A stretch of 64,000 nt of DNA from Fimbriimonadaceae bacterium (GTDB taxonomy: Bacteria; Armatimonadota; Fimbriimonadia; Fimbriimonadales; Fimbriimonadaceae). Below the pieces are notes generated by a model. The model ran no database searches. It was not told where the DNA came from and saw only the letters and a list, made by a program, of their open reading frames with translations. Positions 26,814 through 34,105 of this stretch are shown piece after piece. The translations under genes and the position numbers were made by a program. The DNA lies in contig JAHBTB010000001.1 in assembly GCA_019638795.1 (NCBI GenBank), positions 124,001 to 188,000 on the forward strand. Direction: 5' to 3'. The first letter of the stretch is position 1; each line of letters starts with the position of its first letter.

Positions 26814-29258
26814 ATGACGAAGTCGCTTGGGATCTTCCTGCTCCTCATCTGGGCTGCGGCGACGTCGGCCACGACCGTGAGGTTTTGGGCTGTCACCGGC
26901 AGTGCCGACGACGCCGCGATGTACCGGCGTCTGGCCGCCGCCTACGAGAAACGGACCGGCGTGCATGTGGAGGTGACTCCCCTGGCATGGGGAAACTTCC
27001 AAAGCAAGTACTTCACCGCCATGGCGGCGGGCATGCCACCCGACGTCGGGGCGACCAACCTGGGGGGCCCGTTCGACTACGGCACCGTCGGCGGTCTGGT
27101 GGACCTGCGCCAAGAGTTCCCCGCCGAGTGCCGCGACCTGGAGCGACGGTTCAACCCACGGCTGATGCCGCTGTTCTCGGTGGGCGACCACCTCTACGGT
27201 GTGCCGGCCGACCTGAGCACCGTCGTCCTCGTATACCGCAAGGACATCTTCGCCCGGCTTGGTCTGGCCGCTCCGCAGACGTGGAGCCAACTTGAGCGGA
27301 CGATCATGGCCTTGGAAGGGGCCGGCTACCGGACGTACTTCAACTTCACCGCTGGGGCCCAGTGGGCCCTCTACATGTACACGATGCCGTACGGCGTCCA
27401 GGGCGTCGAACAACGTCCCGACGGGAGCGGCAAGCTCAACTGGCGCGAACCGGCGTACCAAAAGGGCGTCATGCAGGCCCTGAAGTTCTGGTCGTTGCGC
27501 GATTCACCGGGCAAGGATTTGGGGAGCCGGTTCACGGGGTTGTTCCGCAGTGACAAGCCTGGCGAGGCGGTGCCCCTGCTGATCGACCTGCCCCAGGTCA
27601 ACGGCATGAAGCAACTGGCGCCGGAGGTGGCCGACAAGATCGGGGTCGCCCCGTGGCCGAAGGCCGACGACGGCCAACCCTACTCGGTCGTCGGCGGGAT
27701 CACCTATGTCGTCTTCCGCAAGGGAAAGGAACACAAGGCCGCCTTTGATTGGCTGAAGTACCTGTGCAGCGACGAAGGCCAGCAGGCCGTCGTCCTGGAC
27801 CGCATGTCCCGCAAGACCGGAGGCGAGCTGACGATTTCGGCGCTGAAGGACATGTACGGGCCCCAAGCCGAGTCCTTCTGGGCCCAACCCGCCTTCGACC
27901 CCGTGAGAGACATGCAGAAGGTCATCGCGGCGGCCTACCCCTCGTTCGGGACGACCGCCTCGGTCCAAGGCAACACCGAGGCCGGCCGCATCGAGCAGAA
28001 CCTGCTCGACGAGATGCAGTCGTACATCGTCGACCAAGTCAGCAAGGAAGCCGAGAAACTCGGGTTGACCCGGTCGACGCTTCACCGGGCCTGGGGTCAG
28101 GGCCGCCACTTGGACGTCCGTGAGGCGATCGTCCAGCGGGCCACCCAGGAACTCAAGCGGAAATATGACGTTGCCGCCCCCAAGGCCGAACAGCAGCTCC
28201 AAGAGGCCGCCGCGCGCCAAGCCCGCCGGACGCAGACGGTGCTCCGCGACCTAGACAAGTACGAGAAGGCCCCCAACATCATGGACGGGATCAAGGGCGG
28301 CCTCCTCGCGGCGTCCGTCGGCCTGACCGCCCTGGTGCTCCTCCACCCCCGGTTACGCAAGTACCGGCTGAGCTACCTCTACGTCGCCGTACCCTTGGCG
28401 TTGGCGGTGGTCTTTGTCTTTGTGCCCGCCCTGACCGCCCTCTACATCTCGTTCACCGAATACCACCCGGTCCTGCCCCTGAGCACAGCCATGCCGGTGG
28501 GGCTCCGCAACTACACCGACATCTTCCGGTCGGGGGAGATGCAGGCGGCCTTGTCCCGCACGCTTGTGTACGCCGTGGGCACCGTGCCGCTCGGCCTTGT
28601 CCTCTCCTTGGGGTGCGCCCTGTTGCTGAACAGTGTCAAGCGGGGCACGAACTTTTGGCGGTTCATTTACTTCTCGCCAATGGTGACGAGCGGTGTCTCC
28701 ATCGCCCTCATCTTCGCCCAGCTCTTCATGTTCGGCAAAGAAGGGTGGTTGAACGCCCTGCTCCTTAACCTCCACCTGGTGCGCGAGCCGGTGCAGTTCC
28801 TCCAGAGCGAGCACAACTTCCTGAACAGCGTCATGGCCCTGGCGGTGTGGCAAGGGATCGCGTTCTCGACGATCGTCTTCCTGGCCGGTCTCCAGCAGAT
28901 ACCGGACCAACTCTTCGAGGCGGCCGAGATCGACGGTGCGGGGGCGGGGGACAAGCTACGCCACGTCGTTCTGCCCGGGGTGCGGCCCCAGACCGCGTTC
29001 CTGTCCATCCTGGGGGTGATCGGCGGGTTCCAGGTCTTCGACACGATTTTTCTCCTCGCCGGCAAGAGCGGTGACGCCGGCGCCCGCTTCGGCCCGAACG
29101 ACAGCGGCATGACCGTCGTGCCCCTGATCTATCACCTGGGGTTCGAGAACATGCAGATGGGCGTCTCGTCGGCGGCGGCCTACGTCCTGTTCGCCGTCGT
29201 CCTGCTCTTGACCTTTGTCCAATGGCGATTCTTCAGCGCCCCGGGGAGGCAATCATGA
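26814..29258 (+). CDS. Sugar ABC transporter: binding protein fused to MalF-type permease
   Basis: This 814-residue protein joins two parts that are normally separate. Residues about 20-420 are a family 1 solute-binding protein (TTVRFWAVTGSADDAAMYRR, then AMAAGMPPDVGAT and GDHLYGVPADLSTVVLVYRK). After a charged helical linker, a TM helix (about 495-508, LLAASVGLTALVLL) leads back into the cytoplasm. Then comes a MalF-type permease, from YLYVAVPLALAVVFVFVPAL, with the EAA loop FEAAEIDGAGAGDKLRHVVL (about 700). The topology is consistent: binding protein outside, linker helix inward, then permease. The MalG partner overlaps by ATGA. No ATPase is in the window, so a shared MsiK-type subunit is likely. 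Confidence 0.88.
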   Translation: MTKSLGIFLLLIWAAATSATTVRFWAVTGSADDAAMYRRLAAAYEKRTGVHVEVTPLAWGNFQSKYFTAMAAGMPPDVGATNLGGPFDYGTVGGLVDLRQEFPAECRDLERRFNPRLMPLFSVGDHLYGVPADLSTVVLVYRKDIFARLGLAAPQTWSQLERTIMALEGAGYRTYFNFTAGAQWALYMYTMPYGVQGVEQRPDGSGKLNWREPAYQKGVMQALKFWSLRDSPGKDLGSRFTGLFRSDKPGEAVPLLIDLPQVNGMKQLAPEVADKIGVAPWPKADDGQPYSVVGGITYVVFRKGKEHKAAFDWLKYLCSDEGQQAVVLDRMSRKTGGELTISALKDMYGPQAESFWAQPAFDPVRDMQKVIAAAYPSFGTTASVQGNTEAGRIEQNLLDEMQSYIVDQVSKEAEKLGLTRSTLHRAWGQGRHLDVREAIVQRATQELKRKYDVAAPKAEQQLQEAAARQARRTQTVLRDLDKYEKAPNIMDGIKGGLLAASVGLTALVLLHPRLRKYRLSYLYVAVPLALAVVFVFVPALTALYISFTEYHPVLPLSTAMPVGLRNYTDIFRSGEMQAALSRTLVYAVGTVPLGLVLSLGCALLLNSVKRGTNFWRFIYFSPMVTSGVSIALIFAQLFMFGKEGWLNALLLNLHLVREPVQFLQSEHNFLNSVMALAVWQGIAFSTIVFLAGLQQIPDQLFEAAEIDGAGAGDKLRHVVLPGVRPQTAFLSILGVIGGFQVFDTIFLLAGKSGDAGARFGPNDSGMTVVPLIYHLGFENMQMGVSSAAAYVLFAVVLLLTFVQWRFFSAPGRQS

Positions 29259-30073
29259 AGCTGGGCACCCTTGTCCGGTGGGTGTTGCTCGTCTTGGGCG
29301 GACTTGTCCTTGCGACGCCCTTCTACTACATGGTCGTCATGTCGCTCCGGCCGGACAAGGAGTTGGCCCAGACCGGCTTGAACTTGGCCGTCAGCCACCC
29401 TTCCCTCCAGCCGTACAGCGACCTCTTTGACGCGGGTGTCATTCTGCAGGCGACGTGGAACTCGGTGGTCGTCGGCCTGTCCGTCACGTTGGGGACCATG
29501 TTCTTTTGCACCCTCGCCGGCTATGCCTTTGAAAAGCACCGGTTCCCCGGGCGGAACGCCCTCCTGATCGTCCTGCTCTCGACGATGATGGTGCCCGGCG
29601 CGGTGTTGATGGTGCCCGGGTTCCTCTTGCTGCGCGACTTCGGCTGGCTCGACACCTTTCTGCCGCTGGTGGTCCCCGGGGTCGCGGGCGCGTTCGGCGT
29701 TTTTTTGAGCAAGCAGTTCATGGCCAGTGTCCCGGACAGCCTGCTGGAGAGCGCGCGCCTCGAAGGCGCCCACGACTTCCGCGTCTACTGGTCCATCGTC
29801 CTTCCCCTCTCCAAACCCTTGCTCGCCACCCTCGGCATCCTGACCTTCCTTGGGTCGTGGAACAGCTTGGTCGGCCCGTTGATCGTCTTGCTCGACGAAA
29901 AGAAGTTCACCCTTCCCCTCGCCGTGGCCATGCTGCAGGGCCGGTTCCCGGGCAAGGAGAACATCCAAATGGCCGGGGCGGTCGTCTCCATCGTGCCAGT
30001 CTTGGTCCTGTTCATGCTCTTCCAGCGGCAAATTGTGGCCAGCCTCGCCAGTTCTGGTCTGAAGGAGGGATAG
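29255..30073 (+). CDS. Sugar ABC transporter permease, MalG type
   Basis: The ATG at 29255 overlaps the previous stop and has a GGGGAGG ribosome-binding site 6 nt upstream; the in-frame ATG at 29222 is less likely. The 272-residue protein has six TM helices and the EAA loop LLESARLEGAHDFRVYWSIV, followed by LPLSKPLLATLGILTFLGSW, typical of CUT1 MalG/LacG/UgpE proteins. It forms the channel with the fused binding-protein/permease. An AGGAGG lies at its 3' end and probably serves the next gene. Confidence 0.93.
   Translation: MKLGTLVRWVLLVLGGLVLATPFYYMVVMSLRPDKELAQTGLNLAVSHPSLQPYSDLFDAGVILQATWNSVVVGLSVTLGTMFFCTLAGYAFEKHRFPGRNALLIVLLSTMMVPGAVLMVPGFLLLRDFGWLDTFLPLVVPGVAGAFGVFLSKQFMASVPDSLLESARLEGAHDFRVYWSIVLPLSKPLLATLGILTFLGSWNSLVGPLIVLLDEKKFTLPLAVAMLQGRFPGKENIQMAGAVVSIVPVLVLFMLFQRQIVASLASSGLKEG
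30063..30068 (+). promoter_or_regulatory. Strong Shine-Dalgarno for the MFS gene
   Basis: AGGAGG overlaps the end of the malG-type gene. Counting 9 nt on gives the ACG at 30078, in frame with the MFS protein; no ATG, GTG or TTG lies in that frame until 30189. Confidence 0.55.
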
Positions 30074-30077
30074 GGCG

Positions 30078-31373
30078 ACGCGCGGCCCGGTCGGGTTCCC
30101 GTCCTTCGACCATGCCGGGCGTGCGCTCCGGCATCGGAACTTTCGCCTGTACTTTTTTGGCCAGGGACTGTCGCTCATCGGCAACTGGGTGACCCGGCTG
30201 GCCACCGGGTGGCTGGTCTATGAACTGACGGGTTCGCCCCTGATGCTCGGCGTGGTCAGCTTCTCGGGGCAGATCGTCACCTTTGTCCTCGGACCGGTCG
30301 CGGCGGCCTGGATGGAGCGGTTTGAGCGGCGGAGGTTCCTGGTCTGGACGCAAGCCGCGTCAATGGTCCAGTCACTGACCCTGGCCTACGTGACTTTGAC
30401 CCATGTCGTCACCTACCACCAGGTGATCGCCCTCACCGTGTTCCAGGGGGTCGTCAACGCCTTCGACATGCCCGGACGGCAGTCCTTTCTCGTGCAAATG
30501 GTGGATGACCGAGAGGACTTGGGCAACGCCATCGCGATCAACTCTTCGATGGTCAACGCCGCGAGGTTGGTCGGGCCCGCGATCGCGGGGCTGACGATCA
30601 GCCTGGTCGGCACGGGGATGTGCTTCTTTATCGACGGGGTCAGCTACCTTGCCGTGATCGTCTCGCTCCTGATGATGGACCTGCCCGCCCACCGGCCTCC
30701 GGCGGCGGGCGTGCAGTTGATGCACCAGCTCCGCGAAGGATGGCAATACATCAGCACCTTCCGCCCCATGCGCGTGATCTTGCTCAACTTGGCGGCGACG
30801 AGCTTTCTCGGGATCAGCTACTCCGTCCTTCTGCCGATCATCGCCGGTGACGTCATGCACGGTGGGGCGTCGACCCTGGCCTGGCTGACAGGGGCGTCGG
30901 GCGTCGGCGCCCTGGTCTCGGCCCTTTCCTTGGTCCTCCGCAAGTCAGTCGTGGGGCTGACCCACATCCTGAACGTCGCGGCGGGCCTGCTCGGGGTGGG
31001 CATGGTCGTCCTCGGGCTCTCCCACGCCATGTGGCTCTCGATGCTCGCCCTGGTCTTCACCGGGTTCGGGTTCATCCAGGTGGCGTCGGCCACCAACACG
31101 ATCATCCAGACCCTGGCGCCCGAAGACATGCGCACCCGCGTGATGGGATATTTCACCATGGCGTTTTTTGGCTCGGCTCCGGTCGGCAGCCTGCTGGCCG
31201 GGGCGGCCGCCCACCAGTTCGGCACGATGCCGACCTTGGTCGGGGCCGGCCTGGGTTGCCTGGCGACGACGGTCGTCTTCACCCTGGCGTTGCCCAAGGT
31301 CAGGGCGGACATGCGGCCCGTGTACCAAGAGTTGGGCCTGATCCCCGCACCAGAGCCCGACGCCACCCAATGA
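30078..31373 (+). CDS. MFS transporter (EntS/MFS_3 type), non-standard start suspected
   Basis: The frame encodes a twelve-helix MFS protein of the enterobactin-exporter-like group (IVTFVLGPVAAAWMERFERR, NAIAINSSMVNAARLVGPAI, RVMGYFTMAFFGSAPVG). The family's conserved start of TM1 is present as ALRHRNFRLYFFGQGLSLIG, but this lies before the first standard start codon (GTG 30189). Codons from 30063 to 30188 contain no ATG, GTG or TTG. The AGGAGG at 30063-30068 is ideally placed for the ACG at 30078. I therefore place the start there as an inference; a base error creating a lost start is the main alternative. Expected function: drug or siderophore-like efflux. It follows the ABC transporter closely. 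Confidence 0.8.
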   Translation, partial: TRGPVGFPSFDHAGRALRHRNFRLYFFGQGLSLIGNWVTRLATGWLVYELTGSPLMLGVVSFSGQIVTFVLGPVAAAWMERFERRRFLVWTQAASMVQSLTLAYVTLTHVVTYHQVIALTVFQGVVNAFDMPGRQSFLVQMVDDREDLGNAIAINSSMVNAARLVGPAIAGLTISLVGTGMCFFIDGVSYLAVIVSLLMMDLPAHRPPAAGVQLMHQLREGWQYISTFRPMRVILLNLAATSFLGISYSVLLPIIAGDVMHGGASTLAWLTGASGVGALVSALSLVLRKSVVGLTHILNVAAGLLGVGMVVLGLSHAMWLSMLALVFTGFGFIQVASATNTIIQTLAPEDMRTRVMGYFTMAFFGSAPVGSLLAGAAAHQFGTMPTLVGAGLGCLATTVVFTLALPKVRADMRPVYQELGLIPAPEPDATQ

Positions 31374-31396
31374 CGGGTGTCCGCACTCCCAGGCGA

Positions 31397-31402
31397 GATA
31401 CT
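31397..31402 (+). promoter_or_regulatory. -10 box, leaderless arrangement
   Basis: GATACT ends 6 nt before the ATG of the DUF1080 gene at 31409. Confidence 0.45.
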
Positions 31403-31408
31403 CGCATA

Positions 31409-32176
31409 ATGGGTGAAGTGAAGTCGAGAACCCCAGTCCGAACCGTCGTCGCCAGTCTGTGCGCGGGCTTGGCCGCGGCGCTTGTCGCCCAGTCCCAACA
31501 ACAAGCCTCCAGACCTCAAGACACCGAGGTCTGGACTCCGGTCCCTCCCGTCGTGACCCCTGGTGAGGCGGGCGCCCCGCCGTCGGACGCCACAGTCCTG
31601 ATCGGCCGCGACGGCCTAGGAGCCTGGCACGACTCCAAGGGTGGCGAGGCCAAGTGGGACTTCGCTGACGGGGTCGCCACCGTCAAGCAGGGGGCCGGCG
31701 ACATCGTGACCAAGGCGTCCTTCGGCAGTTGCCAGGTGCACCTGGAGTGGCGGACGCCCGCGGTGGTCAAGGGCGACGGCCAGGGCCGCGGCAACAGCGG
31801 GCTCTTCTTCATGGACCAGTACGAGTTGCAGATCTTGGACAGCTACGAGAACAAGACCTACGTGAACGGCCAGGCCGCCAGTATCTACAAGCAGTACGCC
31901 CCGCTGGTCAACGCGAGCAAGAAACCGGGCGAATGGCAGACTTACGACGCGGTCTTCCACGCCCCCGCCTTCGGGGCCGACGGCAAGGTCCAGAAGCCGG
32001 CGTCGATCACCGTCCTCCACAACGGGGTCTTGGTGCTCGACAACGTGCAGATCAAGGGCGAGACGGTCTACAGCGGCCGGCCCGAATACCACGCCCACCC
32101 GCCCCAGATGCCTTTCCACATCCAGAACCATGGCAATCCGGTCAGCTTCCGCAACATGTGGGTGCGTGAGCTCTGA
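31409..32176 (+). CDS. Secreted DUF1080 (3-keto-disaccharide hydrolase fold) protein
   Basis: The 255-residue product starts with a signal peptide (RTVVASLCAGLAAALVAQSQ), then a Pro-rich stretch and a laminin-G-like DUF1080 domain: LIGRDGLGAWHDSKGGEAKW, VHLEWRTP, GNSGLFFMDQYELQILDSYE. The related 3-keto-disaccharide hydrolases act on oxidised sugars, and the fold is close to concanavalin-type lectins and GH16. Start 31409 is chosen for the signal peptide and the GATACT box. It converges with the GH97 gene, with only 3 nt between the stops. Confidence 0.85.
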   Translation: MGEVKSRTPVRTVVASLCAGLAAALVAQSQQQASRPQDTEVWTPVPPVVTPGEAGAPPSDATVLIGRDGLGAWHDSKGGEAKWDFADGVATVKQGAGDIVTKASFGSCQVHLEWRTPAVVKGDGQGRGNSGLFFMDQYELQILDSYENKTYVNGQAASIYKQYAPLVNASKKPGEWQTYDAVFHAPAFGADGKVQKPASITVLHNGVLVLDNVQIKGETVYSGRPEYHAHPPQMPFHIQNHGNPVSFRNMWVREL

Positions 32177-32179
32177 CCT

Positions 32180-34105
32180 TCACCCGGACACAAAGGCGAC
32201 GAACCCGCCGTCGGCGGCCATCGTGACAGGGACCGTTCCCCCGGCCGCGACCTTGACCTGCTCGGTCCGAACCCCGTTCGGGCCCGCGCCCGGCGTCAGG
32301 TCGTCCAGCCACAAGGTCGCAAAGTGGTCCCGTGGCGGCAGAAAGGTCAACGGCACCTCGACCGTGCGGGACGGCCCCGCCGACATTCCCGCCACCCACC
32401 ATTCCTTCCCCTTTCGCCTGGCGGTCACGAGAAGCTTGCCTGGCTCGCCCATCAGAACCCGGGTCTCGTCCCAGTAGGTGGGGACGGCCTTCAGGACCTC
32501 GAATCCTGGCTGGCCCCGGTAGGCGTCGGGATAGTCCGCGACCATCGGGTTGGGGTTGTCGAAGCACACATAGCTGGCGAGCATGGCCGCCCGTGTCCCC
32601 AGGACTTCTGGGGCGACAAACTTGGCCTTGAAATCTTTCGGTGACACCGCACGGAACCCGCCGGAATGGAAGTCCATCGGCCCGGCGACCATGCGCGTGA
32701 ACACCGTCTTGAGCACATGGGAGGGCGTGACCAGGTCGCTCCACTTCATGTACTCCTGGTTGAGAGCCCCCTCGTGGTTCATGAGGTTCGGGAACGTCCG
32801 TTGGAGACCGGTCGGTTTCCAGACGCCGTGGAAATGCACCAGGATATGGTGCTTGGCGGCGGCACGGAGGACATGCTCGGCGAACTCGACCGTTTCTTGG
32901 TCGTCATGGTCCAGAAAGTCCACCATCAGTCCTGCCCATCCGAGCCTTTCAAACTCGGCGAAGGCTTGGTCCACATGGCCTCGTAGCGCGCCGCTGTGCA
33001 CCCAAGTCCAAAGGCGGACACCCTTGGACTCGGCGTACCGCCTGATCTCCTTCAGGTCCAGGTCGTCGCGGACCCGCGTGACGTCGGTGCTCGGGCCGGG
33101 CACGACACCCTTGTTGTACTGGTGGTACCAAGGGGTGTCGTCATTGTCGGCGATGGTGCTGTGGTAGCGGACGCCGTTCTCGGCGGCAAAGTCGATGTAC
33201 TTCTTCTGCGCTTGCAGGCTGAAAATCGGCGGCTCCGGCCTGCCGTCGTCGACGACGTTGCCGTTCCACCACGGCCACGTCATCTTGCCAGGCTTGATCC
33301 ATCCGGTGCCCCCCGTCTCGTTGGGGTCGGCCAAGCAGTAGATTGTGTTGCTTTCAAGGAGCTTTCCGGCCCGGTCTCCGACAAGGACGACCCGCCATGG
33401 CGTCCGGACCGGGCCGTCGACGACGACCTTGGTGCCGTCGGGCCGAGGGGTGAGGTCGCTGACGACCTGGTCCCCGGCCATACGCAGTCCCATCCCGGCA
33501 TAGCGGCGGAGGTTGGCCTCGGTGACCGCGACGGTCGCCCCGTCAAACTGGAGGGTCAAGGGAGTGTCCAACAGGGCCCCTGCCTTGACTTTGTCGAAAG
33601 GCACGGCGTCGACCGTGTGCTCATGGCTCGTCCGGTAGCTCTCAAGGTACTGGACGAAGGCGGTCGGGTTGCCGACGGGCCGGAACGAAGTCCCCTCGTC
33701 GATGACCACGGTCCGGGGTGAGTTCCTCAGGCCGCCGACTTCGTACCGAACGGCGACGGCGTCGTCATAGACCCGGAAGACAATCTCGACCTTACGGCGG
33801 GACGACGATTCCAGAGTCAACCGCCGTTCGGCGTATGAGTCCATGGCGTGGTCGGCCCGGCCAAACAACACGGCGACCCGCCGGTCCACTCGGCGCACCG
33901 ACTCCTTGACGACCCTGGCACCGTCGAGGACGTCGCCGTCACCCGCCAAGGTAAGGCTGAGCCGGTTGCCGGTGAAGAGTGGCCGCCCGTCATAGGAGAC
34001 CGACCAAGTAGGCAAAGACGTCTCAAGCCTCAGACGGCGGTCGGGCGATTCGGTGGCGCTCACCACCCGCCCTGCCAGGACCACACACAAAGCGGCGACG
34101 GACAC
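32180..34105 (-). CDS. Glycoside hydrolase family 97 (alpha-glucosidase/alpha-galactosidase type)
   Basis: This 641-residue secreted protein starts with GTG 34105 and a hydrophobic signal. It has the GH97 N-terminal beta-sandwich (SPDRRLRLETSLPTWSVSYD; FRPVGNPTAFVQYLESYR) and the TIM barrel with GLMVDFLDHDDQETVEF and ILVHFHGVWKPTGLQRTFPN, then NHEGALNQEYMKW. The Asp in VDFLDHDDQE is where the retaining GH97 members keep their nucleophile, so a retaining mechanism is likely; this is inferred. GH97 acts on alpha-linked glucose or galactose, usually with Ca2+. Confidence 0.93.
   Translation of the reverse strand: MSVAALCVVLAGRVVSATESPDRRLRLETSLPTWSVSYDGRPLFTGNRLSLTLAGDGDVLDGARVVKESVRRVDRRVAVLFGRADHAMDSYAERRLTLESSSRRKVEIVFRVYDDAVAVRYEVGGLRNSPRTVVIDEGTSFRPVGNPTAFVQYLESYRTSHEHTVDAVPFDKVKAGALLDTPLTLQFDGATVAVTEANLRRYAGMGLRMAGDQVVSDLTPRPDGTKVVVDGPVRTPWRVVLVGDRAGKLLESNTIYCLADPNETGGTGWIKPGKMTWPWWNGNVVDDGRPEPPIFSLQAQKKYIDFAAENGVRYHSTIADNDDTPWYHQYNKGVVPGPSTDVTRVRDDLDLKEIRRYAESKGVRLWTWVHSGALRGHVDQAFAEFERLGWAGLMVDFLDHDDQETVEFAEHVLRAAAKHHILVHFHGVWKPTGLQRTFPNLMNHEGALNQEYMKWSDLVTPSHVLKTVFTRMVAGPMDFHSGGFRAVSPKDFKAKFVAPEVLGTRAAMLASYVCFDNPNPMVADYPDAYRGQPGFEVLKAVPTYWDETRVLMGEPGKLLVTARRKGKEWWVAGMSAGPSRTVEVPLTFLPPRDHFATLWLDDLTPGAGPNGVRTEQVKVAAGGTVPVTMAADGGFVAFVSG

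Follow-up and report, generated by a model that had tools for sequence, protein, structure and literature searches.

A sugar-binding protein fused to a MalF-type permease in a Fimbriimonadaceae bacterium, and related fusions across Armatimonadota and other phyla

Among the genes carried on the 64,000-nucleotide stretch of Fimbriimonadaceae DNA analysed in this work (the window), one on the + strand (26814..29258) is an uninterrupted open reading frame (ORF) of 814 codons, with no stop in its translation. It encodes a fused protein of 814 aa, P0001, in which a sugar-binding protein (SBP), an additional transmembrane helix (TM0), and a MalF-type permease form a single chain, as indicated by the single ORF, Pfam, and an AlphaFold2 model. 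We propose, with a probability of about 0.85, that P0001 is part of a CUT1 sugar ABC importer with a covalently tethered receptor, one per MalF/MalG heterodimer. An earlier sequence-only reading had claimed a full binding protein and a MalF-type permease in one chain of ~814 residues, and this was borne out by the ORF translation and by Pfam, SBP_bac_1 matching residues 37-324 (E = 1.7e-25) and BPD_transp_1 matching residues 594-800 (E = 1.2e-12). On sequence evidence the architecture is real and conserved, and plausible in function.

Structure and integrity of the fused protein

The whole-chain AlphaFold2 model of P0001, built from 47 aligned sequences, has a mean pLDDT of 87.4 and a pTM of 0.85. 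The chain begins with a Sec signal peptide (residues 1-19, MTKSLGIFLLLIWAAATSA; 26814..26870; all P0001 coordinates are on the + strand), assigned from a hydrophobic N-terminus without a lipobox cysteine and probably cleaved near residue 19. It is followed by the sugar-binding protein domain (residues ~20-471; 26871..28226), defined by Pfam, by a sequence match to Lin1841 (the closest solved relative by sequence, E = 1.2e-18, ~20% identical), and by structural alignment, in which solved sugar-binding proteins match model residues 19-471 with Z scores of ~30-33 over ~380 residues (Z 33 over 382 residues against 5ysd). Helices 387-415 and most of 433-475 form the C-terminal part of this receptor domain. 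Between receptor and permease a charged linker with one TM helix had been claimed; the extra inward helix stands, and the linker, ~90 residues long on that reading, is shorter than claimed. Because the structural alignment extends to residue 471, the presumed linker consists mostly of receptor C-terminal helices, and only ~13-18 residues separate the receptor from TM0. In the model this short extracytoplasmic linker (residues ~476-488; 28239..28277) lies between the end of the SBP helix at 475 and the start of TM0 at 489.

TM0 itself (residues ~489-510; 28278..28343) is an out-to-in helix leading from receptor to permease, placed by a hydropathy maximum, by a model helix at 489-510, and by the positive loop after it (HPRLRKYRLSY; four positive charges, none negative), which runs into permease TM1. 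An outside receptor and a MalF with its N-terminus inside need an odd number of membrane crossings, so it is TM0 that makes the fusion possible. In 53 of 53 fused proteins (46 from the order and 7 from other phyla), SBP and TM1 are separated by a hydrophobic segment and, after it, a loop with more K+R than D+E, and the topology proposed from sequence, i.e., binding protein outside, linker helix inward, then permease, is supported across these homologues. The MalF-type permease domain (residues ~512-810; 28347..29243), with six helices and an EAA motif, was assigned from BPD_transp_1, solved CUT1 relatives, and invariant EAA residues. Its best NCBIfam models are UgpA, GlcT, and MalF, all scoring below the equivalog cut-offs, and its nearest solved structures are SugA and other CUT1 permeases. 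The EAA motif is the permease site that contacts the ATPase; in P0001 it reads E702-A-A-x-x-D-G-A, and E702, A703, A704, D707, and G708 are invariant in the homologue group.

Joining of two separate genes by a frameshift or assembly error, a possibility raised already in the sequence-only reading, is contradicted by four full-length homologues of P0001 from three other genomes (L051 and L054 in G024, L052 in G007, and L053 in G027), which are fusions 50-54% identical to P0001 from end to end with no stop in the junction. Because these homologues share the fusion and remain open through the same junction, chance and artefact are excluded as its origin; many further genomes carry fusions in which the linker differs, no point in support of such an error was found, and we give it next to no credence. 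The host genome (2.70 Mb, 99% complete) contains one match to P0001 at 100%, and a genome of the same genus carries an N-terminal fragment 80% identical to P0001 that runs out at the contig end.

Within the P0001 homologue group the mean pairwise identity is 53% for the SBP core, 41% for linker plus TM0, and 64% for the permease, and both halves of the fusion are thus conserved. The lower conservation of linker plus TM0 relative to the permease or the SBP core, together with the shortness and exposure of the pre-TM0 linker in the model, is what might be expected if the single polypeptide were cut outside the membrane, releasing a free binding protein to serve an ordinary CUT1 importer. We regard such cleavage as improbable, since TM0 and the positive loop are kept in all 53 fused proteins, which would be needless if release were the aim, and since separate genes, the simpler route, are present in the same genome. 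Another possibility is that the fused SBP serves as an accessory or docking module without substrate capture, the sugar being delivered by a standalone SBP. Six of the nine SBP_bac_1 places in the host genome are indeed standalone SBPs, the search for which had been proposed in the sequence-only reading, and in the genome's match lists no permease match lies close to the SBPs at C6:17930 and C7:96197. This possibility is very improbable in our view, given an SBP core conserved at the level stated above with many invariant aromatic residues (22 in the SBP region of the homologue group) and a fold that spans the whole of known sugar receptors. With a tethered, capturing receptor as the preferred reading, the six standalone SBPs could feed transporters as well.

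By inspection, a lipobox is found in 3 of the 53 fused proteins (L082, L083, and L093), the rest having mostly ordinary signal peptides, and it is present in several standalone SBPs (e.g., L049, L055, L024, L035, and L039). Its rarity in fused receptors and its presence in several standalone ones are consistent with replacement of the lipid anchor by TM0, and suggest that TM0 may do the anchoring in place of the lipid.

No clear catabolic operon was seen around the P0001 gene, and its neighbours are inconsistent across homologues and give no pointer to the substrate: within the window, HisF is encoded upstream and MFS downstream, and genes near the homologues include an FGGY kinase, GH29, and a sialic-acid-type esterase. 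The downstream region of the window (30189-34105) encodes an MFS_3 transporter, a protein with a 3-keto-disaccharide hydrolase domain, and, on the opposite strand, a GH97 glycoside hydrolase; they do not clearly share an operon with the importer. The substrate of P0001 is probably an oligosaccharide.

MalG and MalK partners and the proposed mechanism

The gene for a MalG-type permease partner of 272 aa (29255..30073, + strand; BPD_transp_1, E = 1.5e-16) begins with an ATG at 29255 that overlaps the fusion stop codon at 29256-29258. An ATGA start/stop overlap of this kind is the usual sign of translational coupling, and the claim of a coupled MalG gene after the fusion is upheld by the overlap read from the sequence and by BPD_transp_1. 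The best NCBIfam models of this protein are UgpE, GlcU, and MalG, and it carries no receptor domain. The single OB_MalK match in the host genome is a standalone ATPase of 377 aa (C4:227398; L136:1264-2397, - strand), whose gene is not adjacent to transporters; the genome has several CUT1 systems. Shared ATPases serve several importers in some Gram-positive bacteria, and by elimination this lone MalK probably serves all the CUT1 systems of the genome.

In the proposed mechanism, the signal peptide would export the binding-protein domain, TM0 would cross the membrane out-to-in and pass the chain to the MalF permease with its cytoplasmic N-terminus, and MalF would pair with the 272-residue MalG encoded by the gene that overlaps its own. 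Power would come from a pair of MalK-type ATPase subunits, probably copies of the lone 377-aa MalK, and the tethered receptor would catch the sugar and dock on its own permease, with no pool of free or lipid-anchored receptor. MalG being on a separate chain without a receptor domain, one receptor per heterodimer is expected; the 1:1 receptor stoichiometry and its consequences for capture kinetics would follow from the anatomy of the chain.

In the commonest fused system of the order, the partner is an enlarged MalG of ~565-610 aa (vs ~275 aa), found in the host genome as L044:3452-5209 (- strand, within G000:C1:690000-700000); further examples are in L057, L061, L063-L065, P0002 (L067), L069, L070, L073, L081, L083, L084, L086, L091, L095, and L096. 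Its N-terminal part has ~5 extra helices, and an extracytoplasmic insert of two beta repeats follows the first MalG helix. BPD_transp_1 is its sole Pfam match, its model reaches moderate confidence (pLDDT 70), and Foldseek returned weak non-permease matches (E 0.02-0.07), including tandem Agenet/Tudor (SH3-like) domains. The window's own MalG has neither the extra helices nor the insert. The third fusion of the host genome (L045:4122-6596, - strand; G000:C2:220154-222382) is not directly followed by a MalG gene, and neither is its relative L090:2962-5388 (- strand) in G021. No obviously unpaired MalG was seen in the PF00528 list of the host genome; the L045 fusion may form a homodimer or borrow the MalG of another system.

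Distribution and number of origins

The arrangement is not exceptional. Besides P0001, the host genome encodes two other SBP-MalF fusions, located at C1:695223 (810 aa) and C2:220154 (an 824-codon frame), and the same domain order, when looked for as that reading had proposed, was found across Armatimonadota and in other phyla; a fusion unique to the host genome or phylum is ruled out by these matches. All 47 long ORFs collected from the relatives and the window match BPD_transp_1, and 46 of them match SBP_bac_1. One candidate, L076, has no SBP_bac_1 match and was treated as separate, its N-terminal half being a shadow frame as judged from sequence. At E<=0.001, a profile of the receptor end and TM0 only (the junction profile) matches 219 of 291 Armatimonadota genomes; by hand count, ~173 of the 291 reach E<=1e-20. 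The strong junction matches listed fall for the most part in open frames of ~700-1000 codons.

Outside Armatimonadota, genomes were searched with a full-length profile and the ORFs were then read under table 11. Intact fusions with the linker helix were confirmed in 12 of 80 genomes (G299, G311, G320, G351, G362, G370, G395, G405, G424, G445, G456, and G466), a proportion that is not an unbiased frequency, 20 of the 80 having been picked for a junction-profile match. Two sets of candidates were rejected. Long open frames in G360, G462, G410, G321, and G315 are not receptor fusions under table 11. Plasmid relatives from Deinococcus, Allomeiothermus, Paenibacillus, and Sinorhizobium appeared fused by tblastn coverage, and the three that were checked are separate genes.

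In a tree of 84 permease domains, P0001 groups with four other fusions in a clade that has full support and lies apart from both the main fusion clade of the order and the one holding the third host-genome fusion. The fused/separate label requires at least 7 changes on this tree, two of them forced by well supported branches, and shuffled labels require ~25. The constraint of all fusions to one clade was not rejected in the AU test (p = 0.067). Fusion, or splitting, probably happened more than once, though this is not proven. We put at about even odds the broader proposition that the one-chain receptor-permease is a standard CUT1 form in Armatimonadota and in scattered members of other phyla, that it arose more than once, that the commonest version in the order works with an enlarged MalG (with ~5 additional helices and a tandem SH3-like insert on the extracytoplasmic side), and that it makes up a distinct, undescribed sub-class with a fixed 1:1 receptor stoichiometry.

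Significance and comparison with known systems

Three ways of arranging the receptor are distinguished in the literature, one being "fused to the permease", and ordinary importers tend to make receptor in excess of permease (PMC9045158). The excerpted text of the Fimbriimonas ginsengisoli genome paper gives 68 permease and 28 substrate-binding proteins and does not mention fusions (PMC4072686). No account of CUT1 receptor-permease fusions was found in the open-licence literature, which is weak evidence of absence. The main interest lies less in this single locus than in the phylum-wide spread and in the testable, fixed 1:1 receptor ratio. Such a ratio, fixed by fusion in a heterodimeric sugar importer, would be a natural test of the purpose of receptor excess, and a CUT1 complex with a single built-in receptor would lend itself to single-molecule and structural studies. 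In such genomes, a tally of standalone sugar receptors falls short of the true number of receptors.

The solved receptor closest to the P0001 SBP by sequence, and the top match by fold, is Lin1841 of Listeria innocua (5ysb, 5ysd), which binds beta-1,2-glucooligosaccharides; it is a standalone receptor, and its ~20% identity to the P0001 SBP does not imply a shared substrate. E. coli MalEFGK2 and mycobacterial LpqY-SugABC resemble the P0001 system in their MalF/MalG-type permeases with EAA motifs and in the SBP fold. A MalK-type ATPase gene lies elsewhere in the genome, and its product probably belongs to the P0001 system. In both of these systems, however, the receptor is separate, either soluble or lipid-anchored, whereas in P0001 it forms one chain with MalF via TM0.

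Receptors tethered to the translocator are established in importers of the GlnPQ type, and GlnP too has a short linker, of 19 residues before the TMD (PMC8025302). As in P0001, the receptor domains of GlnPQ, here in tandem, are N-terminal to the permease in one chain and capture is tethered. GlnPQ imports amino acids as a homodimer and has four receptor domains per complex, whereas the P0001 system would be a heterodimeric sugar importer in which one is expected. GlnP-type TMDs are not known to need an extra helix such as TM0. OpuA (glycine betaine) shares with P0001 the principle of a covalently attached receptor, but it belongs to a different transporter family with a different substrate and, unlike the P0001 system, is homodimeric, which gives it more than one receptor per complex. 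The OpuA receptor sits C-terminal of the permease. The leading family matches of P0001 are of the sugar type (UgpA/GlcT/MalF and SBP_bac_1) and not those of the amino-acid or osmolyte importers. We would place the P0001 system, as classified by sequence, outside the GlnPQ and OpuA families and within CUT1, as a new arrangement of receptor and permease.
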